In this document: positions 3,888 to 34,698 of the stretch, in pieces
Layout of the letters: each line of letters starts with the position of its first letter
Numbering within the stretch: the stretch's first letter is position 1
Virus record (IMG/VR): IMGVR_UViG_3300048587_000730
Span: 1 to 42,762 of that record
Origin: a virus
Length of the DNA: 42,762 bases
Strand: one strand, 5' to 3'
Made by a program: the position numbers and the translations under genes
Notes under the pieces: generated by a model
What the model saw: the letters and a program-made list of their open reading frames with translations, nothing else
Told to the model about the DNA's origin: nothing
Databases searched by the model: none

Positions 3888-5156
3888 ATGACAAACTCGA
3901 TCCGTCTGATTTTTCTTTCCGTAGCCCTGTTTCTCACTCTGGGCGTATTCGCACAGACCACCACCCCACCTTTCTCTGACAATGAACAGCCGATTTTTTC
4001 CAACACCTACCTGATCGACAACGTGTCGAACAACTCGGTCAGCGGTGATCTCACGCTTCGCATCAATAAAAAAGCCCCTTTTGATTGCAAGACCAAGGCG
4101 GACTGCCCTGCGTCGGTGATCATCTCCAACGCCAACGGCAGCGTGAACATGCCGGTCGATGTCAATGTCGGCTCACTTTATGTTGGCAAGGCTCTGACCA
4201 TTGACTCGACTGGTCGCTGGGTTGGACCTAGCAGCGGTCTGCGCGGTGATAAGGGCGACACAGGCCCGCAAGGTCCCATGGGCCTTCAAGGCCCAAAGGG
4301 CGACGCCGGCCCCATCGGACCAGCGGGACCTCAGGGTTTGAAGGGCGATACCGGAGCAACCGGAGCAACCGGAGCAACCGGAGCAACTGGTCCACAAGGC
4401 CCTCAAGGACTCAAAGGCGACACTGGTGCCACAGGGCCGGCTGGTCCTCAGGGTATCAAAGGCGATACAGGAGCTACCGGAGTGGCAGGACCGCAAGGTC
4501 CAAGAGGCGACATCGGCCCGGCAGGACCCCAAGGCATTCAGGGCTTCAAAGGAGACACGGGTGCGATGGGACCTCAAGGACCACAGGGCGTCAAAGGCGA
4601 CACAGGCCTGACAGGAGCTCAAGGCATCAAAGGCGACAAAGGAGATCCGGGGGATGGTTGCTGGTATGACGATCAAACGCAAAGGATCAACTGTGCTGGC
4701 GGAACATGGATTCCCCTTTCCTCGATCAAAGGACCGCAAGGCGATCGCGGAGCAAGCGGACCCACGGGACCCACGGGCGCAACCGGTCCTGCGGGACCGA
4801 CCGGACCAACTGGGCCTTCGGGAGCGACTGGACCAACTGGACCTCAAGGACCTGCCGGCTTTCGTGAATGCCGCACCGTTACTGCAGACATAGGACCTGA
4901 TTCGGCGGGTGGGACCAATCCACAGACGCTTTTTGTTTTCGCCGACTGCAACGGAACAGCGAAGCCATCCATTGTAACAGGCGGGAGCTGTTTTGCCTCA
5001 AGTGGAAGACCACTGCTTTTGAACGTTCCAACGATTGATTCCACGATCAACCCAAGCACAGGAAAACCCATATTCAACCGCTGGCAGTGTCGCGGCGAAA
5101 GTACCAACAACACCTCGGGAAGACTCACCGCCACAGCCATCTGCTGCAGTAACTGA
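3888..5156 (+). CDS. secreted collagen-like protein inside the tail operon
   Basis: A 422-residue protein with a clear Sec signal peptide (basic 'MTNSIR', hydrophobic residues 7-21, likely cut after 'VFAQ'). Residues about 24-115 form a non-repetitive head with a Cys pair (C67, C73). Gly-X-Y collagen repeats run from about 117 to 257, rich in [11 protein letters not shown] and [10 protein letters not shown] units; a 25-residue break with '[17 protein letters not shown]' follows; a second Gly-X-Y block covers about 282-324; a Cys-rich globular C-terminus (C328, C354, C368, C401, C419, C420) ends it. Phage fibres often contain collagen repeats but have no signal peptide. Export suggests a host-surface or periplasmic cargo protein; a fibre role remains possible because none is seen elsewhere. 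The GC-rich minus-strand ORF opposite is a shadow of the repeats. Confidence 0.85.
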
Positions 5157-5231: not shown

Positions 5232-5747
5232 ATGAAATATCCCAAGCATTTGAAAAACTTCAATGTGACATTCGGCGTGTCGGAATTTTCTGGCGTCTGC
5301 GAAGAGATCACCCTTCCAAAGATCAAATACAAAACCGAGGAATGGCGCGGTGCGGGAATGGACGCGCCCATCGAAATCCCTGTTGGACTTGAAAAGCTTG
5401 AATGTACCATGAAATTCGGTGAGCAAACCATCGAAGGTTACGTGTCTGCAGGCGTTGTCCTTTCAGGATTTGTTACCGTAACCATCTTTGGTCACATCGC
5501 AGCCATCGATGGAAAGACCGATAACCTCACCTGCATCCTGCGCGGCTGGATCAAAACGGTCGATCCTGGAACTTTCAAAGCTGGTGATCCCAAATCCGCA
5601 ACCCAGACCCTTGAGATGTCCGTTATCAGCTGGATAATGACTCGCGGCGTCATTCCTCTTGTGACGATTGATGTCATGCGCGGCATCACGATGCACGGAC
5701 CACTCGATCAGCACGAAGCGGCGCGCAAAGGCCTCAAACTCACCTGA
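5232..5747 (+). CDS. FII: phage major tail tube protein (P2 FII-like)
   Basis: Inner tube subunit surrounded by the sheath. The N-terminus 'YPKHLKNFNVTFGVSEFSGVCEEITLPKIKYKTEEWRGAGMDAPIEIPVGLEKL' is the hallmark of the FII/phage_tube family (L..LN.F..G..Y.G...E.TLPKL....EE.RGAGM...V....G). The length of 171 aa is normal. Weak ribosome site (TGGAATCAAAG). It follows the sheath after the inserted collagen-like gene and precedes the assembly chaperone, as in P2. Confidence 0.93.
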   Translation: MKYPKHLKNFNVTFGVSEFSGVCEEITLPKIKYKTEEWRGAGMDAPIEIPVGLEKLECTMKFGEQTIEGYVSAGVVLSGFVTVTIFGHIAAIDGKTDNLTCILRGWIKTVDPGTFKAGDPKSATQTLEMSVISWIMTRGVIPLVTIDVMRGITMHGPLDQHEAARKGLKLT

Positions 5748-5771: not shown

Positions 5772-6104
5772 ATGGACCTTCCTTTGATCGAACCCTTTCA
5801 CTTCAAGGGCAAAAAATACGAGTCTGTCACGCTCTCCGACTACTTCAAAACCCGCCACAAGATGGCTCTTGCGAATAACGTCAGCAGAACCGAAAGCGAG
5901 CAGCACGAAGCACTTGTCATGTCTTTCTGCGAAAACCTGCCAGCCGAATCCTTTGGCGATATCTCTGCGGACGACATGGACCTGATTGCAAATCACGTCA
6001 ATGAAGTCATGGAAAAATACGCCGCGCGGCATGGCCTCATGGAGCAGGGCGGTGCTGGAAAAAAGCCAGGGAAGCCATCCAGCGGGAACCGGCAAAAACG
6101 CTGA
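5772..6104 (+). CDS. E: tail assembly chaperone E
   Basis: Short form of the tail assembly chaperone (P2 gpE, Mu gp41 type) that coats the tape measure during tail assembly. 'MDLPLIEPFHFKGKKYESVTL' is the family's usual start (a beta strand, then 'G..y..l.l'), followed by helices and an acidic 'PAESFGDISADDMDLIANHVNEVME'. AGGAGATAAGC precedes ATG 5772. The gene has the slippery heptamer at 6059-6065; ribosomes that do not slip finish at TGA 6104, whose last base is the first of the E' ATG (TGATG). Confidence 0.85.
   Translation: MDLPLIEPFHFKGKKYESVTLSDYFKTRHKMALANNVSRTESEQHEALVMSFCENLPAESFGDISADDMDLIANHVNEVMEKYAARHGLMEQGGAGKKPGKPSSGNRQKR
6059..6065 (+). promoter_or_regulatory. programmed -1 frameshift site A AAA AAG in gene E
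   Basis: In the E frame the codons are GGA AAA AAG, giving the canonical A_AAA_AAG heptamer (as in dnaX). A slip into -1 leaves the frame open (ARE AIQ REP AKT L...) through 13 codons straight into the E' ORF, yielding a fusion of about 165 aa. A purine-rich GGAG...AGGGCGG lies 10-20 nt upstream, as in other SD-stimulated sites. The position matches the E+E' frameshift of P2-like phages. Confidence 0.8.
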
Positions 6105-11249: not shown

Positions 11250-12494
11250 TCAGGGCCATACTATGCGAAAGCTTTTTTTCTCAGCTGTCCGTTTAGGATG
11301 TGTCCTTTCAATGAACCCATATTTTTCCAAAGAAGTCATTGAAGTCGAAACGTGCGTAAAGTGACAGTTCGTTCCTTGCTCAATTTCTTGATTGGAATAG
11401 AGAAGCCACCCTCTTCCCTCTCTGATTGTTCGGCCAAGCAGATATAGAGCAATTCTAATCTCTCGCAGTCCAAACTCAGAAGATGCTAAGTAGCTAACCA
11501 CCCGAGAAACAAATTCTCTTTCCGCTTCATTTGAATCGGTTAGTAGGCTTTGTATCAAAGTGTTTTCGCTAGTACTGTGCGCGCCCTTCTTGACTAGCGT
11601 CACCTCTTTTGCTTGCTCTACGATAGGTGATTCGACGCTTACCGATTCGGCTTTAGCTATATTAGCGTTTGCCGTTTTAGCGATTGCCTTTTGGGCATTT
11701 GCTGTTTCAGCGAACATACTATCTGATATCGCCAATTCAGTCTTGGCCTGATCTGACTTAGACGCATCAGGAATTGCCGATACAGCTATTGCCGTTCCAG
11801 CATTTTCTGAATTGGCTTTAGCTAATTGAGCGTTATCTGTTTCGGCTTTTGCTTTGATAGCATTTTCTGCTTCAGCTTTTCCTATTTTAGCATTTTCTGT
11901 TTCGGCTTTTGCTGTCTCAGCTATTGCTGTACTAGCAAAATCCGACTCGGCTATATCCATTTTAGCTTTTGCTGTTTTAGCTATTGCCGAATCAGCAAAT
12001 CCTATCTCGTCTACAGCTATTACAGCGTTCGCTGCTTCAGCAATTGCTAATTCGGAGTTTGCTGAATTAGCAATAGCCGCTTCGGCTAAATCGAATTCTG
12101 ACTTAGCTGAAGAAGCATTTGCCAAATCAGATATAGATGTTTCAGCATTAGCTGACTTGGCGTCTGCTGAAATGACTTCACATGTTTCAAGTCCAGGTTC
12201 AGACACAGTTGCAGAAACGATATTCTCTTGCGTGGAGATCGTGTTCGAGTCTGAAAAACTGCTCGCTTCTGGATCAGTCCGCGGAGTAACTGCACTTTCA
12301 CGCGCTTCCGATTCAACGGCAGCATCATGATTAACTAACGGTAATGACTCCAATTTATCTGAAATGTCATTAGCTGAATCAGCTAATGCTGAATTAGCTA
12401 AGTCCCCTGCTGAAGTAGCTTGTTGCTTCTTCAACTTTTGAGGCGGTTTCGCGGTCTTTGAACGACCTTTGGCAAGGAGGCTTTCAATATCCAT
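11250..12494 (-). CDS. pentad-repeat protein with C-terminal winged helix, coupled to ParA
   Basis: 414 residues in three parts. Residues 1-30 are basic ('LLAKGRSKTAKPPQKLKKQQ'), reminiscent of ParB/ParG N-terminal tails that touch ParA. Residues about 110-285 (plus a short copy at 30-45) are roughly 35 five-residue units with Ala almost invariant (AIAET, AKAET, ENAKI, DNAQL). This is similar in rhythm to pentapeptide repeats, but the usual central Leu/Phe is Ala. Residues about 310-414 look like a winged helix ('REIRIALYLLGRTI', 'LYSNQEIEQGTNCHFTHVSTSMTSLEKYGFIERTHPKRTA'). The start overlaps the parA stop by 11 nt with GGAGG upstream, so the two are coupled. I infer a DNA-binding partner of ParA; a replication regulator is the alternative. 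The repeats are also DNA repeats found outside the gene. Confidence 0.7.
   Translation of the reverse strand: MDIESLLAKGRSKTAKPPQKLKKQQATSAGDLANSALADSANDISDKLESLPLVNHDAAVESEARESAVTPRTDPEASSFSDSNTISTQENIVSATVSEPGLETCEVISADAKSANAETSISDLANASSAKSEFDLAEAAIANSANSELAIAEAANAVIAVDEIGFADSAIAKTAKAKMDIAESDFASTAIAETAKAETENAKIGKAEAENAIKAKAETDNAQLAKANSENAGTAIAVSAIPDASKSDQAKTELAISDSMFAETANAQKAIAKTANANIAKAESVSVESPIVEQAKEVTLVKKGAHSTSENTLIQSLLTDSNEAEREFVSRVVSYLASSEFGLREIRIALYLLGRTIREGRGWLLYSNQEIEQGTNCHFTHVSTSMTSLEKYGFIERTHPKRTAEKKSFRIVWP
11640..12420. repeat. about 40 degenerate 15-bp repeats inside the coding sequence
   Basis: On the plus strand the stretch reads as successive 15-mers near TTCAGCNATTGCTGA, for example at 11978-11992 (TAGCTATTGCCGAAT), with the core AGC-N4-GCT recurring once per unit. 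The core can be palindromic (AGCAATTGCT), so both strands look alike. The units encode the pentad repeats of the minus-strand gene. Dense between 11640 and 12167, with a separate cluster at about 12366-12420. Confidence 0.8.
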
Positions 12495-13518
12495 GGGTCA
12501 CAGCCTCCGCGACGGTAGCAGCACCCTTCTTAGCTTTAGAACCTAACTGGGTTTTCCAAGAATCGATTTCGAACAACTCAACAAGCAGCTTATCGATGCT
12601 ATCTAAAGCCGGTGCCTTAGTACGTGGTACGCTCCAAATGGAATCGCCACTGGTCAAAGCTTTTACAAGCGCGTTAGAGTTTGGAATGACTTCTTTGCAG
12701 AGATGCTCTTTGCTGAATACCATGTTCAAGTCTGACAACATTTCAAACGATAGATTCGTCCTCTGGTCGAATTTATTGATCACGACCTTATAGTCACCTT
12801 CTGACTCATATTCCTGTTTAACAAAATCAATATGCTTCTTCATGAGCTTCAAGCCCTTAACAGAAAAGCCTTCAGTATTGACTGGAATAAGTGCGCATCC
12901 GGTAAAAGCATGGGCAGCAAAAGAAACTCGATTGAACTCTCCAGCCAGATCGACAAAGATTGCGTCATACTCGTCTTTCGCACCAATCAATAGACGCGAA
13001 AATATCTTGCCGACGTCTGCGCCAGAGTTCACAAGCGCCAAATCCAGTTCCGCTAATCCAAGGTTAGATGGAAGAACGTGAAGGTAAGGCGTAACTTCAA
13101 AGAGCGCATCATGCCAGTCATAGGTTTCGCCAGCGATACGCTTATCAAATAAATCCTTCATAGTTACGACGTCTTTATGATCGTCGTTAATGCCCAAACT
13201 ATTTGTCGCATTCGCTTGCTTATCTAAGTCAATGACCAGCGTTCTATGAGCGTATGTGCTGGCTCTGGTGCTCAAGCCATGCGCTAAAAGTGTCTTACCG
13301 ACGCCACCTTTAACGTTATGATGGCAAAATGCACGCTTCTTCTTCTTCAAACTGCCACGCAAAGAAATGATTCTATCTAGGGTCGCCGGATAGATTCTAT
13401 GCTGTCGCTGCCCTTTTTGCTGAGTCTCAATCCCATTGTCTTTGCACAATTTGTGCAAACCTTGAACAGTAATGCCGAGGACATTCGCTACATCAACTGG
13501 TGTCAAGTACAATTCCAT
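12484..13518 (-). CDS. parA: ParA-family partition ATPase with N-terminal HTH
   Basis: A 344-residue deviant Walker ATPase. Residues 5-30 are a helix-turn-helix ('TPVDVANVLGITVQGLHKLC') followed by 'QHRIYPATLDRII', as in type Ia ParA proteins that repress their own promoter. The Walker A motif is K70-GGVGKT-76 with the signature lysine; 'VIDLDKQANATNSLG' (95-109) is the A' block, with Lys where Pro is usual; 'YDAIFVDLAGEFN' is Walker B. It segregates low-copy replicons by binding nucleoid DNA and a centromere-bound partner. The next gene overlaps it and is the best partner candidate; a ParB-like protein lies 10 kb away. An inverted repeat overlaps its promoter. Confidence 0.9.
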   Translation of the reverse strand: MELYLTPVDVANVLGITVQGLHKLCKDNGIETQQKGQRQHRIYPATLDRIISLRGSLKKKKRAFCHHNVKGGVGKTLLAHGLSTRASTYAHRTLVIDLDKQANATNSLGINDDHKDVVTMKDLFDKRIAGETYDWHDALFEVTPYLHVLPSNLGLAELDLALVNSGADVGKIFSRLLIGAKDEYDAIFVDLAGEFNRVSFAAHAFTGCALIPVNTEGFSVKGLKLMKKHIDFVKQEYESEGDYKVVINKFDQRTNLSFEMLSDLNMVFSKEHLCKEVIPNSNALVKALTSGDSIWSVPRTKAPALDSIDKLLVELFEIDSWKTQLGSKAKKGAATVAEAVTHGY

Positions 13519-13543
13519 CGCCGCGAGACTCCCCCAAGAGTTT

Positions 13544-13588
13544 GGTTTAAAAAAATCATAGCATGCGGCTGTTGATTTAAACCATCAA
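13544..13588 (-). promoter_or_regulatory. candidate parA operator/promoter
   Basis: GGTTTAAA (13544-13551) and TTTAAACC (13576-13583) form an inverted repeat around a minus-strand -10-like TATGAT (complement of 13555-13560) and a GCATGC palindrome. The right arm sits in a second palindrome, TTGAT (13572-13576) and ATCAA (13584-13588). It lies 26 bp upstream of the parA start, suited to autorepression by the HTH domain. Confidence 0.5.
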
Positions 13589-13648
13589 AAATAAACTTTC
13601 TGAATAAAATACTGAGGTGTCCAAAGTGTCGGGCTGGTTGCACACCTT

Positions 13649-13750
13649 AGCTATTTTAGCTTTTTCTTTTTCAGCGAAAGCTGTTTCAGCTAACTTGCAT
13701 ATTAGCCGTTTTAGCAATTGCGCTTCTAGCAAAAGCTGCATTGGCTAACT
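13649..13750. repeat. degenerate copies of the AGC/GCT 15-bp repeat upstream of parA
   Basis: About seven decayed units (TTAGCTATTTTAGCT, TTCAGCGAAAGCTGT, TTTAGCAATTGCGCT and similar) of the same family as inside the downstream gene. No open frame of note covers them, so here the repeat is not kept for coding. Confidence 0.65.
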
Positions 13751-13893
13751 TGTACCGCCCCTTCGATTGTAGCGAACAGTCAGATTTACGATTGTCTTAC
13801 TGTCTGTCTCAGAGCTTGTCCTATTGGCTGTCTCAAAGCATGCAATATTGAAAAATTAGATTTTCTACGGTACACCGGGAGATCCGAGCAAAT

Positions 13894-14043
13894 CTGTCGC
13901 TGCTAAACTGGCAATTGCTACAACAGCTGTCGCCAATACAGCTGTCGCCAATACAGCTGTCGCCAATACAGCTGTCGCCAATACAGCTGTCGCCAATACA
14001 GCTGTCGCCAATGCAGCTGCTGCTAGATCAGCGATTGCCGATT
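13894..14043. repeat. 15-bp tandem iteron array before the replication gene
   Basis: Five perfect tandem copies of CAGCTGTCGCCAATA (13924-13998), a sixth with one change (13999-14013), and degenerate units on both sides, including CAGCGATTGCCGATT at 14029-14043, which matches the coding-region unit at 11978 in 12 of 15 bases. It ends 111 bp before the primase-helicase ATG. Iterons of this kind serve as replication origins or partition centromeres; which one cannot be told from sequence. The adjacent 13760-13860 holds two CTGTCTCA(G/A)AGC copies (13804, 13828). Confidence 0.85.
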
Positions 14044-14154
14044 CGTACGATTATATTTTCAAATTTAACTCGTTAGACTTTTTAAAGTTAGAAGTGCGGA
14101 CTGCGAAGTCAGCACGGAAGTTTACAACCTTGCATTTGGACCCGGCTGCCAAGG

Positions 14155-17100
14155 ATGACCAACCAGAATTTACTCATGGAGCACGCCAGTGAACTGGCCG
14201 ACCTCGCTGCCGCATGCGGGATCGATTGGTATCAGATCAAGGATCTGACGGCCGGCACGCATCATGATCTCCCCACAATCCATAAGAAGTACAGCAAACG
14301 CTGTACCATGTGGGTCCGCGAGTTCACAGATAAGGGTGGCAGTCCGCAACTCAGCATCACTTTCCACACTCGCAAGCACGGCGGTGTCACACGCAATTGG
14401 TATTCGCGCTCACCCGGTGGCTACGGAGGACAGCTTCCGAAGCGAAACGTCAGCCGCGAGGAAGCCGAACGAAAGCGCCGCAAGGAACGGTTCCTTGCCT
14501 ACCAGAAAGGCTGGGACTCCGCGCAAAAAAGCACCGGGTTTCCCTATCTCGATACAAAAGGCATCGCTGCCATCCTAGATCATTTTGAGCTGCGGCAGAC
14601 CTCGGATCGCAAGGTCACAGGCAGCGGAAGCGTGACCCCATTCATTTGTTTTCCGCTTTTCAACCGCGACGGACACTACGTTGGACTTCAGCGCATATAC
14701 GCCGATGGAACCAAAAAGCTTACTGCTGCTGTGATGGAAGGGCAGTACGTAGGTGCTCATTCCGTCATCGGAGATCCGGAGGCGAGCAATGTTATCTACA
14801 TTGCTGAAGGCTTCGCCACCTGCGCCAGCATTTTTCTGGCCACGGGTTCCGCGGTTGTTTTCGCCTATAGCGCGAGCAACCTTGATCCGGTCTGTGCCTA
14901 TTTCCGCTCAAAGTACCCCGAACGCGAAATCGTCATCGCGGCCGACAACGACTGGACACCAAAGGGCAACACCGGGGTGTTCAAGGCTCTGGAAGCTGCG
15001 CAGCAGAACCGGACCCGTGGCGAAGGTCTTAAGGTCATAGTCCCGCCCCTGATCGGTCAGCAAAAGACTGACTTCAATGATATTCATACCTGCCTGGGAC
15101 TCGGTGAGCTTCGGGAAACCCTGGCAAATCCTGCCAACACTCTACGGCCATCGAGGGAGCGCGATCAGTTTTTACTAACCCTTCTCAGCCATGCCTACGC
15201 GCAGCAGATGCCGGCGATTGTGAGAAGACTGGCCGTATTGCTCAAGGTTCCCCATCTCATATCAGAGGAAGCGCTCCGCGAGCGGATCACCGAGGCCCTT
15301 GGCATTCGGGCTGATCAGCGCATGATCTTCAAGGCTATCCGCTCGGTCGTGATCGCAGGCAAGTACAAGGCCAAGGCCATTGCCGGGATTGATCCGAACA
15401 AGGTTCAGCATTATCGGCAGTATCAAACGGTGCGAAACGAGGGCGGGCACCTCGTCATCGGTGAGGACGCCGTCCAGGCTGTGATGGAGGAGCTTCAAAA
15501 GGGAAGAACCGTTATCGTCAAGTCCCCGATGGGGAGCGGAAAGACAGAAATTCTGATCCGAAAGGCGATGCGGGGAGCAGGCCGTGCAGCCCATATCCTG
15601 CCGAGGGTGTCGGTCGTCAACGATGCCGCCGGTCGGCTTCAGCTTGACCACTACCGCGATATCGACAAATTCCGGGCCTACTTCACCGATCAAATGGTCA
15701 GCTGTATCAACTCCATGGGAGCCAAGCGATTCATGGCAGACAATGGTCGCAACTGGTTTGAAAACCTCGACCTACTTTGCCTCGACGAAGCCAGCCAGGT
15801 GCTCCCGCAGGTGGCCTCGCTGGGGAATCCCTTGCGCCGACGTGCCAACCACCTAGCCCTCGTCAACTCCATAAAGACTGCGGGTTCTATTCTGATTGCC
15901 GATGCCGACGCAAATGACTTTCTGGTGAATGAGTTGAAACGGATCGATCCTGATCGGAGCATAACGCTCATTGATATCGGCCATCCACCGGCCGAGCAGA
16001 AACGCTTGCGGGTAGGAGTTACAGACTCCGTTTCCTTTGTCAGAAAAGCCCTGCTTGATGCCGCCACTGATGGCGAGCGTTGTCTCCTGGCAACGGATAA
16101 CCGGCAAAAGGCCATTGAGATCGAGCGGGCGATTCGCTATCTCCGGCCAGGGACAAGGGTTCTGAACATTCACAGGGAGCCCTCCAAGGCCAATCTTGAG
16201 AAGATCCGCCGCTTCTATGACAATCCAAACACCGAGTGCCTGGACTGCGATGTACTGATCTACTCGCCCGCCATTACTTCGGGTGTCTCGATTACAACTC
16301 CTCATTTCAGGAAGCACTTTGGAATCTTCACGGGCATCATCAAGGTGAACGACATGATGCAGATGCTCGGCCGCGATCGGACTGCAGAGGAATGGCTTCT
16401 GGCTCTGGCGCCGCGCAGCTGGGCTGAACAAAGACTTCGCGCTTCGATTGACCTTGAAAGCGTGGGGGAGTCACCGACGCTCTTTTCCGAACTGAAGTAC
16501 GCAACTGATCGCTATGAAATCGAGGCACGAGAGAACCTTACTGTCCTGGCCATGAATATCCTGAAGATGAAGGGCCACAGGGTTTCCATGCTCGATATCA
16601 CGTCCTGGGAAGGGGCGGGAGCCATCGATATGCTGACGATGAATATCGCCAAAGGCATGAAGCAGGAGCGTCTCCGGCGAATTCTGGGCCAGCCGGAAAT
16701 CAGTGAGAGCGACTATCAAAGTCTTAAAAGACACTGGTTGCCAGACGAGAACGAGGCTGCAGCCATCTACGCTTATAAAATCCGCCATGTCCTTTGTGCT
16801 GATCTCACCGAAGAAAACGTCTCGTTCATGGATCAGGGTGGACTCAAAAAAGTCGCCCTCTTTGAAACACTGCTTGGAAGCGATGCCGACCTGAAGCGCT
16901 TTGATGCGGACGAGAAGCAAACCCTCGATCCATCGCTCCGCTACCACGCGGCCGCAAAAAAGGAATTTCTGACCGCGGTATTCGAACGTCTTCAAATCTC
17001 ACTTAAAACCTTTGTTGGTGAATTTACGCATAAGGAGTGCCAGGCTGTGGTTGCCCTCTTTATGGAGCAGGCGCAGAAAGCCAATGCCGTGTTCGACGGA

Positions 17101-17322
17101 ATCATCGATCCTGAGCACCCGCCCCGTTGCGCGACCACGTTTGTCCAAAAGATTTTCCGAAGACTCGGCCTCCGTATTGGGGGGAGAAAATCCAACGGGC
17201 GCATGATCCGCTTCGTTGAGACTTCCGATCTATCCCGCATGCTGACCCTCCGTGATCGCCGCCTGGCCAATGGAAAATCACTTTACTCCACTGCAATAAA
17301 GACAGAATCCGAGGCTGCATAG
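14155..17322 (+). CDS. TOPRIM primase / SF2 helicase replication protein (CyRepA1 / origin-binding helicase-like)
   Basis: A 1055-residue two-part replication protein. The N-terminal half is a TOPRIM primase: 'VIYIAEGFATCASIFLATG' near 213 and 'EIVIAADNDWTPKGNTG' near 258-274 supply the catalytic Glu and Asp pair. The second half is an SF2 helicase like herpes-type origin-binding proteins: Walker A SPMGSGKT (457-464), Walker B 'LLCLDEAS' with D544-E545, 'LLATDNRQKA', 'IYSPAITSGVSI' and motif VI QMLGRDR from 736. It probably opens the origin and primes synthesis; plasmid and phage-plasmid initiators share this plan. ATG 14155 is kept although its ribosome site is poor; ATG 14176 is an alternative. 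The iteron array just upstream makes it the natural initiator. Confidence 0.82.
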   Translation: MTNQNLLMEHASELADLAAACGIDWYQIKDLTAGTHHDLPTIHKKYSKRCTMWVREFTDKGGSPQLSITFHTRKHGGVTRNWYSRSPGGYGGQLPKRNVSREEAERKRRKERFLAYQKGWDSAQKSTGFPYLDTKGIAAILDHFELRQTSDRKVTGSGSVTPFICFPLFNRDGHYVGLQRIYADGTKKLTAAVMEGQYVGAHSVIGDPEASNVIYIAEGFATCASIFLATGSAVVFAYSASNLDPVCAYFRSKYPEREIVIAADNDWTPKGNTGVFKALEAAQQNRTRGEGLKVIVPPLIGQQKTDFNDIHTCLGLGELRETLANPANTLRPSRERDQFLLTLLSHAYAQQMPAIVRRLAVLLKVPHLISEEALRERITEALGIRADQRMIFKAIRSVVIAGKYKAKAIAGIDPNKVQHYRQYQTVRNEGGHLVIGEDAVQAVMEELQKGRTVIVKSPMGSGKTEILIRKAMRGAGRAAHILPRVSVVNDAAGRLQLDHYRDIDKFRAYFTDQMVSCINSMGAKRFMADNGRNWFENLDLLCLDEASQVLPQVASLGNPLRRRANHLALVNSIKTAGSILIADADANDFLVNELKRIDPDRSITLIDIGHPPAEQKRLRVGVTDSVSFVRKALLDAATDGERCLLATDNRQKAIEIERAIRYLRPGTRVLNIHREPSKANLEKIRRFYDNPNTECLDCDVLIYSPAITSGVSITTPHFRKHFGIFTGIIKVNDMMQMLGRDRTAEEWLLALAPRSWAEQRLRASIDLESVGESPTLFSELKYATDRYEIEARENLTVLAMNILKMKGHRVSMLDITSWEGAGAIDMLTMNIAKGMKQERLRRILGQPEISESDYQSLKRHWLPDENEAAAIYAYKIRHVLCADLTEENVSFMDQGGLKKVALFETLLGSDADLKRFDADEKQTLDPSLRYHAAAKKEFLTAVFERLQISLKTFVGEFTHKECQAVVALFMEQAQKANAVFDGIIDPEHPPRCATTFVQKIFRRLGLRIGGRKSNGRMIRFVETSDLSRMLTLRDRRLANGKSLYSTAIKTESEAA

Positions 17323-17711: not shown

Positions 17712-19016
17712 CTACTTAATCAAAGGGCGAAAATCCGAAAAACGACTCCAGAGTTCCTGGTCTTTTTCAGACCAACGTATAAGTGGCAGCTTAAACTCAT
17801 CCTCTAGAATAGGAATCACTCGTTGAACCAGCAGTATAGCTTCCTGCGGCGACGTTGCTTGACAGACCAATTGTCCAAAATAGTCTAGGTTGCTAGTGCA
17901 GGCTCTGACGTCGCCATCGACTTTTATCGTAACCTCGATTCTATCGTCGAAAAATCTGCGGGACGTCCATGGTGCTCGGAAGACCGTATCTACCTCTGAG
18001 GCTAGGAGCCGATTCAAAAGGTGTGCCTTCACCGGCAGATTTTGCAACTTAACAGGCAGGTTAACATGTGCATTTAGAACAGCACGCGCAAGATCGATAC
18101 CATAGGCTTTCTCGATGAGTTCGGGAATGCCAACTCCAGGTAACCTGGGATTGAAATCTAACAAGCGAAAACCTCTCTCGCCATAGATCATCTCGATATG
18201 ACACATTCCCCAATTAAAACCGATTGCTTGACAGATAGCCTTTGCAAAACTCTCACAATTCGCCCACGCTTGTTTACTAAGATAACCTGGTACTAAGGAA
18301 CCGAGTTCTACGGATTCATTGTGCTGAGCCCTTTGCCTTTGGGAGAGAGTGACTAATTGAAACTCGTTCTTGGAAACCAGACATTCGGCTGAAAGGAGGA
18401 TGCCTTCCAGATATTCTTCACAGATATAGTCTGGATTGGAACCGAGAACCTCGTTGGCTAGTGTCTTACTATTTTTGAAAAGTTGTAGCCATGATCGGAG
18501 ATCTTCGCGGGTATGAACCTTTTGCACATTTAGGCTTGAAACTCCGCCTCGCGGCTTCAGTATTAGAGGGAAATCCGAATCTTCAATCATATGCATCGAA
18601 TCGGAATTGAAGTTCTTGTTGTAAGCAAGTCCATGATCTTTCAGGACGCGTTGGATCCCAAACTTGTCATGAGCTAGTTTGGATGCTTGGAGGCTTAGAA
18701 AGGGAACCACTATTTGGTCACAAATGATGGCTAGCTTTTCAATAATGAAGTGCTCCAAGCAGATTACTGCATCGATAGGTAATTCTCGATTGATGCGGTC
18801 AAGTTCACTTTTCATCAGCTCAAGATCGTTTGAATCTCGGATTACGACAAACTTTCGGCAGTATTGAGCAAAGAGACTTTCCTGAATATCGAATTGGTAG
18901 AAGGTATGCTGAAATACGACGATCGATAATTTCGCTTCTTCAGCAATACATTTTAACATTTTGATGTAGAAAGTCGCGTTAGGACAGGGTCCAAATAAGA
19001 CTACATGTTTTGCCAT
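17712..19016 (-). CDS. ATP-grasp family ligase
   Basis: A 434-residue ATP-grasp enzyme of the carboxylate-amine ligase type (carnosine synthase/BacD-like plan). An N-terminal Rossmann-like domain ('KHVVLFGPCPNATFYIKML') is followed by the ATP-grasp fold: 'FPLILKPRGGVSSLNVQKV' (K154), 'ICEEYLEG' (E200-E201), 'MCHIEMIYGERGFRLLDFNPRLPG' (E275, D287, N289, R291), so the metal and ATP ligands look intact. It would couple a carboxylate to an amine, forming an amide or peptide; the substrate cannot be read. GGTGG precedes the ATG. It stands alone on the minus strand next to a divergent operon, so it is probably cargo. Codon and base use are AT-richer than the phage core. Confidence 0.8.
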   Translation of the reverse strand: MAKHVVLFGPCPNATFYIKMLKCIAEEAKLSIVVFQHTFYQFDIQESLFAQYCRKFVVIRDSNDLELMKSELDRINRELPIDAVICLEHFIIEKLAIICDQIVVPFLSLQASKLAHDKFGIQRVLKDHGLAYNKNFNSDSMHMIEDSDFPLILKPRGGVSSLNVQKVHTREDLRSWLQLFKNSKTLANEVLGSNPDYICEEYLEGILLSAECLVSKNEFQLVTLSQRQRAQHNESVELGSLVPGYLSKQAWANCESFAKAICQAIGFNWGMCHIEMIYGERGFRLLDFNPRLPGVGIPELIEKAYGIDLARAVLNAHVNLPVKLQNLPVKAHLLNRLLASEVDTVFRAPWTSRRFFDDRIEVTIKVDGDVRACTSNLDYFGQLVCQATSPQEAILLVQRVIPILEDEFKLPLIRWSEKDQELWSRFSDFRPLIK

Positions 19017-24007: not shown

Positions 24008-24330
24008 TTTTCCAACTCCTGTTTTTATTCCGGGAATGAAAAATCATATATCACCAATATAGAAAAGATATTCCTGGATTTGAAATCCACATTTTTTCTC
24101 ACCAGCCTTGAATATTCAAAATGAAATCAGGCCAGTATGGCCGAAAAAACGCCCATGGCGAGGGCCATCTCCTGGTTTTTTCAATGATTTCTGATAGATA
24201 AAATCTATGGGCTGGAAGTGATCGAAATACATCTGTATTTAAATCGCTTATTTTTTGTGCAATCAGCGAAAATCGAAAAGACATTAAACACTATAATTTT
24301 GTATAATAAATAAAATACCTTATTTTGTCT

Positions 24331-24359
24331 TTGACTTTTAATGGCAATTGTCCGATAAG
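24331..24359 (+). promoter_or_regulatory. candidate promoter of the toxin-antitoxin operon
   Basis: TTGACT (24331-24336), 17-bp spacer, GATAAG (24354-24359), 29 bp before the antitoxin ATG. Two further TATAAT boxes lie at 24292 and 24302 in an AT-rich tract. The intergenic 24008-24330 holds no gene that I can support. Confidence 0.35.
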
Positions 24360-24387
24360 AGACATTAGCTATCAGGAGGTGCTGTTC

Positions 24388-24732
24388 ATGAGTGCTGAAG
24401 ACATCGTGAAAAAACTGCTCGCCGGCATTGAGAACTCACCGAGCTGGACGGCATCGGACGCGCGGAATAAATTCGACCGGTTGCTTGACCAGGCCCTCGA
24501 AGGCCCCCAGGTCATCGCCCCGATGCGTGGCCACAAAGAAAAATTCGTCTGTATATCCCTGGCTCACCTCAACGAGCTGAGTGATAAGCTTCAGCGCCTC
24601 GATGCCGAAGTTCGCAGAACCCGAGTCTCGAAAGTTCTTGAGAAGGTGAGACAGTTCTACGAAGAAAATCCTGAAGCAGAGTTGACCATAGAGCGCGACC
24701 CGGAAAAACCAGCCATTGATTTTGAAAGCTGA
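24388..24732 (+). CDS. Phd/YefM-type antitoxin
   Basis: 114 residues. 'ENSPSWTASDARNKFDRLLDQALEGPQVIAPMRGHKEKFVCISLAHLNELSDKL' is the Phd/YefM pattern (t.seaR.nl..ll.....gp..It..g...avlis...y..l), giving a DNA-binding N-terminal half, with an acidic C-terminal tail to neutralise the toxin. ATG 24388 follows a strong AGGAGG. It ends 4 bp before the toxin ATG, the standard antitoxin-first order; the pair would repress its own promoter and stabilise the element. Confidence 0.85.
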   Translation: MSAEDIVKKLLAGIENSPSWTASDARNKFDRLLDQALEGPQVIAPMRGHKEKFVCISLAHLNELSDKLQRLDAEVRRTRVSKVLEKVRQFYEENPEAELTIERDPEKPAIDFES

Positions 24733-29901: not shown

Positions 29902-29968
29902 GTAACCATAGTTACCCGCTGATGCTATAGAGATCCTATAGAGATCCTATAGAAATCCTATAGTATTC
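29902..29968. promoter_or_regulatory. operator-like cluster: GTAAC inverted repeat and four 11-bp CTATAG repeats
   Basis: GTAAC-CATA-GTTAC (29902-29915) is followed by four tandem 11-mers: CTATAGAGATC (29925, 29936), CTATAGAAATC (29947) and CTATAGTATTC (29958). Eleven-base spacing puts a palindromic CTATAG on the same helix face once per turn, as for cooperative regulator binding. It lies 270 bp before an XRE gene; further AT-rich palindromes (CGTATATACG, 30183-30192) are near the gene. The rest of the stretch shows no gene. Confidence 0.6.
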
Positions 29969-32097: not shown

Positions 32098-32226
32098 ATG
32101 GAAAAACCAACGCAAAGGAATCGAAGCTTAAGGCTTCGCAGCTGGGAGGAAGCGAAGCTAAACGCTTCGCGGCTGGGAGGAAGCGAAGCTAAACGCTTCG
32201 CGGCACTGAAAGAATGCTCGACATGA
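32098..32226 (+). CDS. possible 42-aa leader ORF over hairpin repeats
   Basis: ATG 32098 opens a frame of 42 codons (M-E-K-P-T-Q-R-N ... L-K-E-C-S-T) to TGA 32224-32226, 18 bp before the primase-helicase ATG. It contains Arg/Leu/Ser-rich text encoded by the hairpin repeats. No clear ribosome site, so it may be a fortuitous frame or a leader peptide. Confidence 0.3.
   Translation: MEKPTQRNRSLRLRSWEEAKLNASRLGGSEAKRFAALKECST
32113..32201 (+). repeat. three tandem hairpins, 31-bp repeat
   Basis: Two copies of a 31-bp unit (32140-32170, 32171-32201) and a degenerate first one. Each contains GCGAAGC-TAAAC-GCTTCGC (32152-32170, 32183-32201) or CGAAGC-TTAAG-GCTTCG (32122-32138), separated by CTGGGAGGA. 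The array lies just before the primase-helicase gene and could fold in the mRNA leader or act as an origin or binding array. Confidence 0.7.
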
Positions 32227-32244: not shown

Positions 32245-34698
32245 ATGCTGTTCCCTGAAGAAACCATCCAGCAGATAAAGACGCTGATGCCGCCCGAAAA
32301 GCTTGCCGGAATTCTCGGCATTCCCGTTAAACATCACATGATCGTTTGCCCATACCACGACGACACGAAGCCAAGCATGAGCTGCAAGGACCCATTCGTC
32401 TTCAACTGCTTTGCCTGCCAAACGAAGCGTAACGTCATCATGTTCTATAGCGAGCAGCGTGGACTCACCTTTCCTGAAGCCGTACGGGAGCTTGCTCTGC
32501 ATACCGGAGTCGTACTGCCGGAGCAGCCGGCGAAAAAGCCCGCGCTGAAGAAGACCCGCTCCAAAGATGGCGGTCTTTCGTTTGCCTCGATTGAGGAGGC
32601 GCGTCGATACTATTCCCAGCGTCCTGGCTTTCGTCTCGTCGCTGATCACGCCTGGCTCAACGATGACGGCAGCCCCAATAAGCATGTCTTTCGGTTGCAC
32701 CCTGTCGATCCATTTGAACGCAAGCAGTTCCCGACGATCTTTCCGTCTGACGGTCGCTGGGTGAACAAAAAGCCAGCGGGTCATCCACGCCCCCAGCCCT
32801 ACTTCTGGAATGCCTGTGGGGATTCGGACGAGATCCTGATTTTTGAGGGCGAAGGTGATGTTGAGGCCGCACAGCGTGAAGGATTCCCCGGAACGACAAC
32901 GGGCAACTGTAACAGCTGGCACGAGGACTATCAGCGGTATTTCAGAGGGCGTCGTGTTGTGGTTGTTCCTGACTGCGACGAGCATGGGGCCCGATACGCC
33001 AATGCCATTGTGGAGTCGCTGCGTCCTGTTTGTCTCGGTCTTAAGATAATCGACATTGGTGGCTCGGACGGATTCGACTTCAGGGACTGGCTAAAGGCCG
33101 GTGGGACGCCTGAAGCCTTTCGGAAGCTCATTGATGCAGCTCCTGATATTCTCCTCGCCTGGAACGCCCCAAAGGCGTCCTGGAACGGATTCGAGCGCAT
33201 CCCTCGGTTCGATGCCGATGAGATGCTCCACTGGTCGATTCGCTACCGTATTGAGTATCTGGCGGATGACCTCCAGTCGCCAGTGGACGCAATAGCCGCT
33301 TCAGTCATCGCAGGCCTCTCAGCTGTGATAGGTGCGAAGGTCTTCCTCTATCCCAAGGTCCATAGCATGACCTGGCGTGTCTATGCCTGCCTTTGGTATC
33401 TGCTCGTTTCGCCGCCAGGTGACAAGAAGACTGCGATCCAGAAGGCCGCACTCGCGATGCTTTTTCAGTTCGACAAGGAACTCGGGCTCCTGAATAAGGA
33501 AAGGGCTGCGGCGCGCGAGGCAGAAGAATCGATCCTGCGAATAGAGAAGCGTCAGCTTGAGGCGAATTTGGCTGTGGCGATTGAGAAAGGTGGCGATGTT
33601 GCTTTTCTCCAGGAGCAATTGGCTCGAAAGGTCGCTCGGCTGAATGAGCTTGCTGATGAGGGAAAACGGGCTGTTATCGTCGGGGACGTAACGCCTGAAA
33701 AGTTGATGGAGCTTCTAGTCCAGAATCCGGTAGGTCTTTGCAAGTTTCACGATGAGCTGGGAGGCTGGTATCGTAGCCTTGATAAAGGCACTGTCAGTGA
33801 TGCCCGCTCTCTCTATCTTGAAGTCTGGAACGGTGGCGAAATCAAAGTTGACCGTAAGAAGGGCTCGTTCTCTGGTTGGTCGATTCTCTCGTTCATTAGC
33901 AGCACTCAGCCCGATTGGCTAAAATCAATCATCGATGAGATCGTGGCCGGAACCGAGCAGAACGATGGCCTCATTGCCCGCTTCGGCCTGATCATTGCCC
34001 ATGATCGCCCTATCGGAGCTTTCAAGTGGCATGACGCTCCTTTTCATCCCGAGGGCTGGATGCTTTTCGAGGAAGTGTTCCGTCGGCTTTGGGAACTTGA
34101 AGTACCCGAAGATCAGAAAGCCCTGCACTTCGACGCCGAGGCGCAGGCGTTTGTAGTCGAGTGGATGGAAAACCACCACAACACTTGGCGTGACAGTCCT
34201 GCCCGCCCTGCTCTTCGTAGCCACATGGATAAGCAGGTAAGTCTTTTCTGTTCTCTCTCAATCATCTTTCACATGCTTTTTTGCTTCGAGGCGGGTGAAT
34301 TCAACAATGCAAACAGTAAGTTCAGCAAGCAGATCTCCATCCATTCTGTGCGGATGGCTGCCAGCTGGTGCCGCTACATAGGCTACCATGTGCGCAAGGT
34401 CTACGAGCCCAAACATGGCTACTGGGACCCGGCGGTTCGCTCATTTGCAGCTCAGGTTATGGCAGGCAAGATCATAGACGGCATGTCGCGCACAGACATC
34501 CTTTTGAAGCGTTTTCAGCACCTCAAGACTGCGAAGGACCTGGATCGGGCCCTGCAGGGTCTACGCGAGCTGAATCTCGTGCAGGAGACTGAGACTTTTC
34601 AGCCCGGTGGCGTGCGCACGCAGAAAGTCATTCGCATCAACCCGGCATCGCTGGAACGCCCTGGTTCAACTGCTGCCAAGGAATATGAAAATGCATGA
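32245..34698 (+). CDS. phage primase-helicase: CHC2 zinc finger, TOPRIM, DUF3987
   Basis: 817 residues. A CHC2-like zinc finger (C35-P-Y-H38 and C55-F-A-C58) binds template DNA. TOPRIM residues are at 'ILIFEGEGDVEAAQREGF' (about 197-214) and 'VVVVPDCDEHGARYA' (about 237-251). From about 280 a DUF3987-type helicase part begins: 'YACLWYLLVSPPGDKKTAIQKAAL' holds the P-loop, 'GLCKFHDELGGWYRSL' the Walker B-like acid pair, and a helical C-terminus has a winged-helix look ('DLDRALQGLRELNLVQE'). It would prime and unwind at phage forks. The element therefore has two primase-type proteins. Ribosome site TTGGAGATTGG before ATG 32245. Confidence 0.85.
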   Translation: MLFPEETIQQIKTLMPPEKLAGILGIPVKHHMIVCPYHDDTKPSMSCKDPFVFNCFACQTKRNVIMFYSEQRGLTFPEAVRELALHTGVVLPEQPAKKPALKKTRSKDGGLSFASIEEARRYYSQRPGFRLVADHAWLNDDGSPNKHVFRLHPVDPFERKQFPTIFPSDGRWVNKKPAGHPRPQPYFWNACGDSDEILIFEGEGDVEAAQREGFPGTTTGNCNSWHEDYQRYFRGRRVVVVPDCDEHGARYANAIVESLRPVCLGLKIIDIGGSDGFDFRDWLKAGGTPEAFRKLIDAAPDILLAWNAPKASWNGFERIPRFDADEMLHWSIRYRIEYLADDLQSPVDAIAASVIAGLSAVIGAKVFLYPKVHSMTWRVYACLWYLLVSPPGDKKTAIQKAALAMLFQFDKELGLLNKERAAAREAEESILRIEKRQLEANLAVAIEKGGDVAFLQEQLARKVARLNELADEGKRAVIVGDVTPEKLMELLVQNPVGLCKFHDELGGWYRSLDKGTVSDARSLYLEVWNGGEIKVDRKKGSFSGWSILSFISSTQPDWLKSIIDEIVAGTEQNDGLIARFGLIIAHDRPIGAFKWHDAPFHPEGWMLFEEVFRRLWELEVPEDQKALHFDAEAQAFVVEWMENHHNTWRDSPARPALRSHMDKQVSLFCSLSIIFHMLFCFEAGEFNNANSKFSKQISIHSVRMAASWCRYIGYHVRKVYEPKHGYWDPAVRSFAAQVMAGKIIDGMSRTDILLKRFQHLKTAKDLDRALQGLRELNLVQETETFQPGGVRTQKVIRINPASLERPGSTAAKEYENA

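Follow-up and report, generated by a model that had tools for sequence, protein, structure and literature searches.

Binding sites that lie within the gene of a DNA-binding protein have precedents. In the ParA-ParT-parS system of SCP2 from Streptomyces coelicolor, parS is situated inside the parT coding sequence (PMC12260392); the lambda O initiator binds inverted repeats (ori-lambda) inside its own gene (PMC5043065); and the DNA-binding domain of pSK41-type RepA_N proteins binds Rep boxes in the gene, where the box-encoded linker is dispensable as protein (PMC5703833), according to the accessible portions of these three reports. Here we analyzed a locus on a 42,762-nt virus contig (IMG/VR record IMGVR_UViG_3300048587_000730; the whole stretch is hereafter designated the window), in which parA overlaps the gene of a 414-amino-acid (aa) partner protein, and 15-bp units recur both inside the partner gene and in the non-coding DNA beyond parA. 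We estimate at roughly 70% the probability that the locus represents a type-I partition system in which the gene of the putative DNA-binding partner accommodates part, and in some cases perhaps all, of the centromere array in its coding sequence. The statement of a first-pass annotation, made from the letters of the window, that no system like this has been described is too strong in view of parT, O, and pSK41 rep; for iteron arrays that form the linkers of a ParA partner, presumably of the centromere type, the open-access literature yielded no description.

The locus resembles SCP2 in combining ParA with a non-canonical partner, predicted here to bind DNA, and in having the site inside the partner gene, and the N-terminal peptide of ParT activates ParA as is proposed below for the partner. 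It differs in that SCP2 has a single 18-bp inverted repeat and no array, that ParT has ParB-like middle and C-terminal domains, and that the available text on SCP2 describes no matching non-coding arrays (PMC12260392). The sites of lambda O, as far as the available part of its description goes, are four 19-bp-type repeats that serve as a replication origin and not in partition. To our knowledge, lambda O has no ParA partner. The pSK41 rep gene is alike in having binding sites within its linker-coding region, which in the window are present as sequence and predicted to be bound; it differs in serving replication, in having four boxes, and in that the accessible text mentions no overlap of parA with rep (PMC5703833).

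The partner gene follows parA on the same strand with an 11-bp overlap (Table 1), and the open reading frames (ORFs), translations, and coordinates given in the first-pass annotation for this pair, including the basic N-terminus and the pentads in 15-bp units, were borne out. ParA matched the ParA-like PHROG 164 (E=8.8e-33) and has an N-terminal helix-turn-helix (HTH) segment resembling HTH_17 (residues 4–50, E=2.6e-4, below the Pfam cut-off). The partner ends at its winged-helix-like segment with no domain after it, and in residues 1–40 it is identical at 32 of 39 aligned positions to the partner of a related phage contig, L006 (IMGVR_UViG_3300048930_000647). Searched against Pfam at E 0.1, the 414-aa protein (P0001) matched no family, hence neither ParB_N nor HTH_ParB, and the lambda O and RepA_N family models gave no match above the Pfam cut-offs. 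Pentapeptide repeats follow the motif A(D/N)LXX; neither Pfam nor NCBIfam gave a match of P0001 to that family, and in the same test the sole NCBIfam match of the L006 partner was NF052603, at 12.4 bits against a cut-off of 125. No relative was found for the whole protein among phages, for its C-terminal domain among plasmids and phages, or with query A1 among genome contigs. An AlphaFold2 model of the partner built from two sequences had a mean predicted local distance difference test score (pLDDT) of 39 and was discarded. The features of a type I locus are thus present, namely, a ParA ATPase, an in-line partner gene, and repeated sites, which would act as centromeres.

The partner gene is constrained at the DNA level. 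Its A-x-A-x-x pentads are the translation of 15-bp units with the palindromic core RGC-N4-GCY, of which the gene contains 18 for 21 A-x-A steps. This number was reached by none of 5000 synonymous-codon shuffles (7.9±1.9), and the reversed control YGC-N4-GCR was not enriched (1 vs 3.2). The 74 cores in the remaining 40,881 bp of the window formed no 15-bp-phased chain. The stricter core AGC-N4-GCT of the first-pass annotation held up in one gene and not in the other: in the window gene it occurs 6 times against 4.0 in own-codon shuffles (reached by 196/1000, not significant), and in the L006 gene 10 times against 4.4 (4/1000); when matches at 5 of 6 positions were allowed, the shuffles reached the observed counts in 61/1000 and 48/1000 cases, respectively. 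The symmetric form was clear in both genes. As RGC-N4-GCY was chosen after the codon-position table had been viewed and was not fixed beforehand, independent checks are provided by motifs learned from other DNA. A motif learned solely from L006 non-coding DNA had 21 sites in the window gene (shuffles 5.0±2.0, 0/200), and one derived from the non-coding DNA of the window itself, with tandem copies collapsed, had 29 (9.3±2.9, 0/200); the motif learned from the exact tandem array alone had none in the partner gene. When 20 Markov genomes were scanned for phased runs of the strict core, none contained one. When viral contigs were scanned with the strict repeated core, at least 120 stretches were obtained; phmmer found neither ParA nor the partner in L010–L129, and ten stretches picked among the stronger ones were Ala-rich or other low-complexity frames. 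An excess of internal repeats over synonymous shuffles is not counted as evidence, since it is also seen in the ParB control L143.

As the first-pass annotation had noticed, the unit family also occurs as non-coding DNA beyond parA. The parA-repA intergenic region contains 11 RGC-N4-GCY cores against 1.07 expected, a number that none of 2000 Markov sequences reached, distributed over a partly decayed and a clean array. The longest exact same-strand match between the window gene and this intergenic DNA is 12 bp of unit sequence, and the non-coding arrays are therefore not recent copies of the gene.

Comparison with L006 separates the sites from the protein that they encode. ParA is identical at 331 of 344 positions, and the L006 partner (433 aa) is 53% identical overall to that of the window; the winged-helix end is nearly frozen (87/89), with 39 of the 87 identical residues using a different codon, and the pentad region is identical at 73 of 185 positions. 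The L006 gene nevertheless retains 17 RGC-N4-GCY cores for 20 A-x-A steps (shuffles 8.2±2.0, 0/5000), so that the units persist at synonymous positions in a homologue, and its intergenic region has 10 cores against 0.86 expected, in arrays matching both those of the window. Thus, the domain that could read DNA hardly changes and the sites are kept, while the site-encoded protein drifts. The first-pass annotation had named as unfavorable a pentad protein conserved with random codons and without outside repeats; the opposite is seen, in that the protein drifts and the palindrome and non-coding arrays recur. Another contig, L003, is practically identical to the window phage and was excluded from the counts.

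In two sister phages, L004 and L005, whose RepA proteins are 95% and 92% identical to that of the window, the same slot from a tail gene to repA is occupied by a ParABS-type cassette. It encodes ParA and a ParB with ParB_N and HTH_ParB domains, both above the Pfam cut-offs, and has three parS-like palindromes of 18–19 bp (ATGGGACACGGTGTCCCAT type) at or just past the parB end, the third being degenerate in L005; its orientation is opposite to that of the window cassette. The palindromes are located at 5665–5756 in L004 and 5668–5758 in L005, the first within the last codons of parB, so that one copy is inside the 3' end of the partner gene here too. The slot is thus a partition slot, in which the 414-aa protein stands in the position of ParB. 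Moreover, because these sisters carry ParAB instead, the 414-aa gene is dispensable for replicating this backbone.

Table 1 Positions of the par genes, their site arrays, and the adjoining repA (window coordinates, except for the two L006 rows)
Feature	Coordinates	Strand	Description
partner gene	11250..12494	-	414 aa; basic N-terminus (MDIESLLAKGRSKTAKPPQKLKK), A-x-A-x-x region, C-terminal winged-helix-like end; proposed centromere-binding protein
winged-helix-like C-terminal domain, ~residues 326-414	11253..11519	-	PHROG 186 (DnaD-like) E=0.0013
in-gene array	11649..12168	.	17 RGC-N4-GCY cores phased at 15 bp
out-of-phase in-gene core	12381-12390	.	RGC-N4-GCY
basic N-terminal tail, residues 1-25	12420..12494	-	putative ParA-contact peptide
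parA	12484..13518	-	344 aa, deviant Walker-A KGGVGKT, Pfam AAA_31 E=1.2e-25
partly decayed array upstream of parA	13649..13750	.	non-coding; intact cores at 13673 and 13728
clean array upstream of repA	13910..14039	.	non-coding; 9 cores at exact 15-bp spacing
repA	14155..17322	+	1055 aa, N15-type TOPRIM/helicase replication protein; PHROG 4913 E=3.2e-135
L006 array matching the decayed stretch	cores 5534, 5590, 5646		non-coding
L006 array matching the clean array	5786 to 5876		non-coding; 7 cores

We propose that the locus is the par cassette of a phage-plasmid, consisting of a type-I ParA ATPase and an overlapping centromere-binding partner that would replace ParB. The basic N-terminal tail may touch ParA and stimulate it, as N-terminal peptides of ParB and ParT do according to the accessible part of the SCP2 report (PMC12260392), and the C-terminal winged helix is predicted to bind the palindrome RGC-N4-GCY. 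The in-gene units would be translated into a tolerant A-x-A-x-x spacer, the pentads being a tolerated by-product of translating the sites, comparable to the dispensable origin-encoded linker of pSK41 Rep (PMC5703833), and the in-gene and intergenic arrays together would form the centromere, that is, the partition complex that acts in segregation. The copies beside parA and repA may regulate those genes as well.

The same layout with other repeats, mostly 11-bp iterons, was found in plasmid relatives. Among the best 30 of 2760 plasmid records, the closest ParAs are those of Bdellovibrio, Piscirickettsia, and Legionella, with 28–32% identity over most of their length. In each record opened, the gene directly 3' of parA is annotated as hypothetical, once as a winged helix-turn-helix (wHTH) regulator, and in none of the 22 loci tested does the partner fail to follow parA. 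The plasmid partners start with a basic N-terminus and combine low-complexity linkers with a winged helix, to which most add a C-terminal domain; those of L138 and L141 lack the latter and so have the architecture of the window partner. A search of viral contigs with the L138 partner found no relative. One record, the Piscirickettsia plasmid pPSA1-1 (L154), shows this par layout together with terminase, portal, capsid, and head protease genes, and is phage-plasmid-like.

To measure how much sequence the partner gene shares with the 399–1199 bp upstream of parA, common 8-mers were counted and compared with synonymous shuffles. Shared 8-mers exceeded the shuffles at ≤1% in 13 of the 22 loci, namely, the window (2/300), L144 (1/300), L150 (2/500), and, at 0/300 each, L006, L131, L132, L134, L135, L136, L138, L149, L151, and L152. 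The parA of L150 is split into two overlapping ORFs, and its upstream region was taken from the upstream ORF. Excluded from the upstream tests were L137 and L141, whose records lack the DNA upstream of parA; L139, whose partner has the accession of the L138 partner; and L142, a partial match at the record end. As a control, parA itself showed no excess in 22 runs, which include the control loci and L150 with a mis-set upstream region (lowest 48/300), and the ParB control L143 gave 265/300 with its upstream DNA. The values for L004 and L005, tested against the DNA downstream of parB (1/300 and 2/300), are as expected from the palindrome inside parB. Motifs were also learned de novo from up to 1 kb upstream of parA and counted in the partner gene against 200 shuffles, a test made without L135, L150, L152, and L167–L169. 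The motifs recurred in the partner gene at 0–1/200 in 9 of 16 non-control loci (L006, L131, L134, L136, L138, L144, L145, L149, and L151) and weakly in L132 (6/200), L146 (9/200), L147 (9/200), and L148 (19/200); no recurrence was seen in L130, in L140, or, with the motif of its exact tandem array, in the window. Among 11 control ParA neighbors (L143, L155–L162, and the two sister phages), nine gave a motif, none with a match in the neighbor, and two gave no motif; in L156, the gene used was not directly after parA.

The iterons are read in more than one frame. In the Piscirickettsia locus L136, nine in-gene cores of an 11-bp iteron (GGAACACAAAC type) are distributed 3/3/3 over the codon phases, and further copies are clustered in the non-coding DNA upstream of parA; in L131, 24 GGAACA/GGAACG cores are split 12/12 over two phases. 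The viral contigs L168 and L169 have 19 perfect copies of TGGAGTCA, mostly at 11-bp steps and in phases 7/7/5, all of them in the gene, with none outside it within 8.6–8.7 kb. A third viral contig, L167, has 28 copies in the ORF and another three immediately ahead of it; the copy number differs among L167–L169, and the frame before the L167 array seems to have been shifted by the expanded array, or the contig is misassembled. One DNA word kept in three frames is not explained by a protein-level repeat. The available text of a survey of P. salmonis LF-89 plasmids identified no iterons (PMC6963756), contrary to the LF-89 scaffold L152, which plainly shows them.

In the AlphaFold2 model of the L147 partner (Legionella genome contig), confidence is mostly high for the winged helix and C-domain, and residues 20–93 and 198–224, with pLDDT <50, flank the winged helix and contain both motif matches (residues 58 and 210). 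The matches in L144 are at residues 34, 49, 188, 203, and 232, the last past the linkers. Structure searches with the Legionella partner model returned generic winged helices; Foldseek gave, among many MarR/ArsR winged helices, a weak match (E 0.016) to the centromere-binding protein of pNOB8 (PDB 4rs8), which is a winged-helix protein as is proposed for the partner. We know of no in-gene array in pNOB8. On this evidence we lean slightly toward a whole family of such partition systems in phage-plasmids and plasmids of several bacterial groups, in which the centromere would be stored, as lineage-specific iterons, in the coding sequence of its binder, and the disordered linkers would essentially be translated centromere DNA, readable in any frame. 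No array was found outside the gene in the 8.6–11 kb examined of L168, L169, and the Bdellovibrio plasmid L130, so that in some members the gene may be the whole centromere.

Several observations weigh against a partition role of the partner and its arrays. The winged helix announced in the first-pass annotation is weakly recognized: it has weak profile matches, such as that to PHROG 186, whereas Pfam wHTH models reach just E 0.06–0.18 on the C-terminal 93 aa. In hhalign, the similarity of the window and plasmid-partner winged helices was not significant (probability 4%, E 0.0095); winged-helix homology is not established by sequence, and what ties the window to the plasmid loci is ParA similarity, gene order, and layout. 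Nine of the 22 loci failed the 8-mer test at 1% (L145, 4/300; L148, 69/300; L147, 95/300; L168, 163/300; L169, 174/300; L146, 179/300; L140, 206/300; L130, 227/300; L167, 252/300), and the 22 are not independent, since L131, L134, and L135 are alleles, L136 and L152 have the same gene, and L132 and L144, like L167–L169, are close. Specificity is also reduced by parA of L148, which holds two motif matches (1/100 shuffles reaches that), and by that of L144, which holds one (13/100); furthermore, four of the 11 control genes are short (252–327 bp) and give a weak test. Finally, the families matched by the winged helices are those of replication proteins (PHROGs 186 and 428, O-like families, and Phage_rep_O, at 19.4 bits against a cut-off of 28.7 on protein P0005), and no rep is annotated on two plasmids examined whole, whose gene tables are incomplete.

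The last two points belong to the strongest rival, in which the partner is related to replication initiators or helicase loaders of the lambda O, RepA_N, or DnaD type, the in-gene array is its origin, and ParA is a mere neighbor. Close architectural precedents for it are the ori inside O and the pSK41 Rep boxes, which are located where rep encodes its linker; in addition, for 3 of 4 P. salmonis plasmids no initiator is named in the accessible part of their description (PMC6963756). Nevertheless, the window has its own N15-type RepA, and sisters with RepA 92–95% identical carry a ParAB cassette; the partner follows parA in every locus tested; no domain follows the winged helix in the partners of the window, L138, and L141; and a separate HTH_36 protein on pPSA1-1 is a candidate initiator. 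We therefore regard an initiator with the origin in its own gene as unlikely; it fits the window badly, and for the plasmid members both readings stand. Considerably less probable is that the arrays are operator repeats bound by the N-terminal HTH of ParA, a notion suggested by the HTH_17-like segment, by the arrays upstream of parA, and by the autoregulation of the operon by type Ia ParA described in the available text of PMC8465637. Arrays in the downstream gene and beside repA are, however, far from a parA promoter. Moreover, a Rickettsiella massiliensis contig has two par loci, L149 and L150, with nearly identical C-domains, in which the winged helix and the iteron both differ; specificity thus does not follow the C-domain, and the joint change fits the winged helix as the reader without deciding between it and ParA. 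Least credible is that the pentads are selected as protein, with the DNA repeats as slippage by-products and the non-coding copies as decayed pseudogene pieces, since, although 15 bp keeps the frame, Tandem Repeats Finder (TRF) detects tandem duplication, and a run of six identical units in L006 encodes NADTS, the palindrome is retained at synonymous positions, conservation is far lower in the pentad region than in the winged helix, all three frames are used to read the 11-bp unit in plasmid relatives, and the longest exact same-strand match of the gene to the intergenic DNA is the 12 bp mentioned above.

If the partition reading is correct, these loci provide many natural cases of DNA selected both as a protein-binding array and as code, among which the frame-independent 11-bp cases would show that the DNA role dominates. 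Centromere and binder would be inherited together automatically, and partition specificity would move as one gene; the resemblance of such linkers to meaningless repeats would also be explained. An iteron found both upstream of parA and in the linkers of the gene that follows it could serve as a signature for unannotated partition partners. A common ancestry of partition partners and of initiators with the origin in their own gene would likewise become a testable question.

The surroundings of the cassette are those of a tailed phage. The left part of the window is a contractile-tail module with tail sheath, tape measure, baseplate, and tail protein genes, and tblastn matched the window RepA to those of phiHAP-1, VP882, PY54, and N15 (27–32% identity). 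The repA adjoining the par cassette presumably encodes the phage's own initiator, and we read the contig, with its tailed-phage genes and N15-type repA, as a phage-plasmid fragment. A second, primase-type replication protein with a CHC2 zinc finger and DUF3987 is encoded at 32245–34698; a tandem array at 32116–32204 (31-bp unit, 2.9 copies) ends 41 bp before this primase-helicase ORF starts, and another at 29921–29963 has 3.9 copies of the 11-bp GATCCTATAGA, either of which could contain the sites of another system. Adjacent to repA, a 434-aa ATP-grasp ligase-like gene (17712–19016; ATP-grasp_4, E=1.4e-13) is unusual phage cargo. A Phd/YefM antitoxin-like gene at 24325–24732 (E=2.3e-5, below the Pfam cut-off) may belong to an addiction module, and a collagen-like tail fibre gene at 3888–5156 contains 9-, 27-, and 45-bp repeats.

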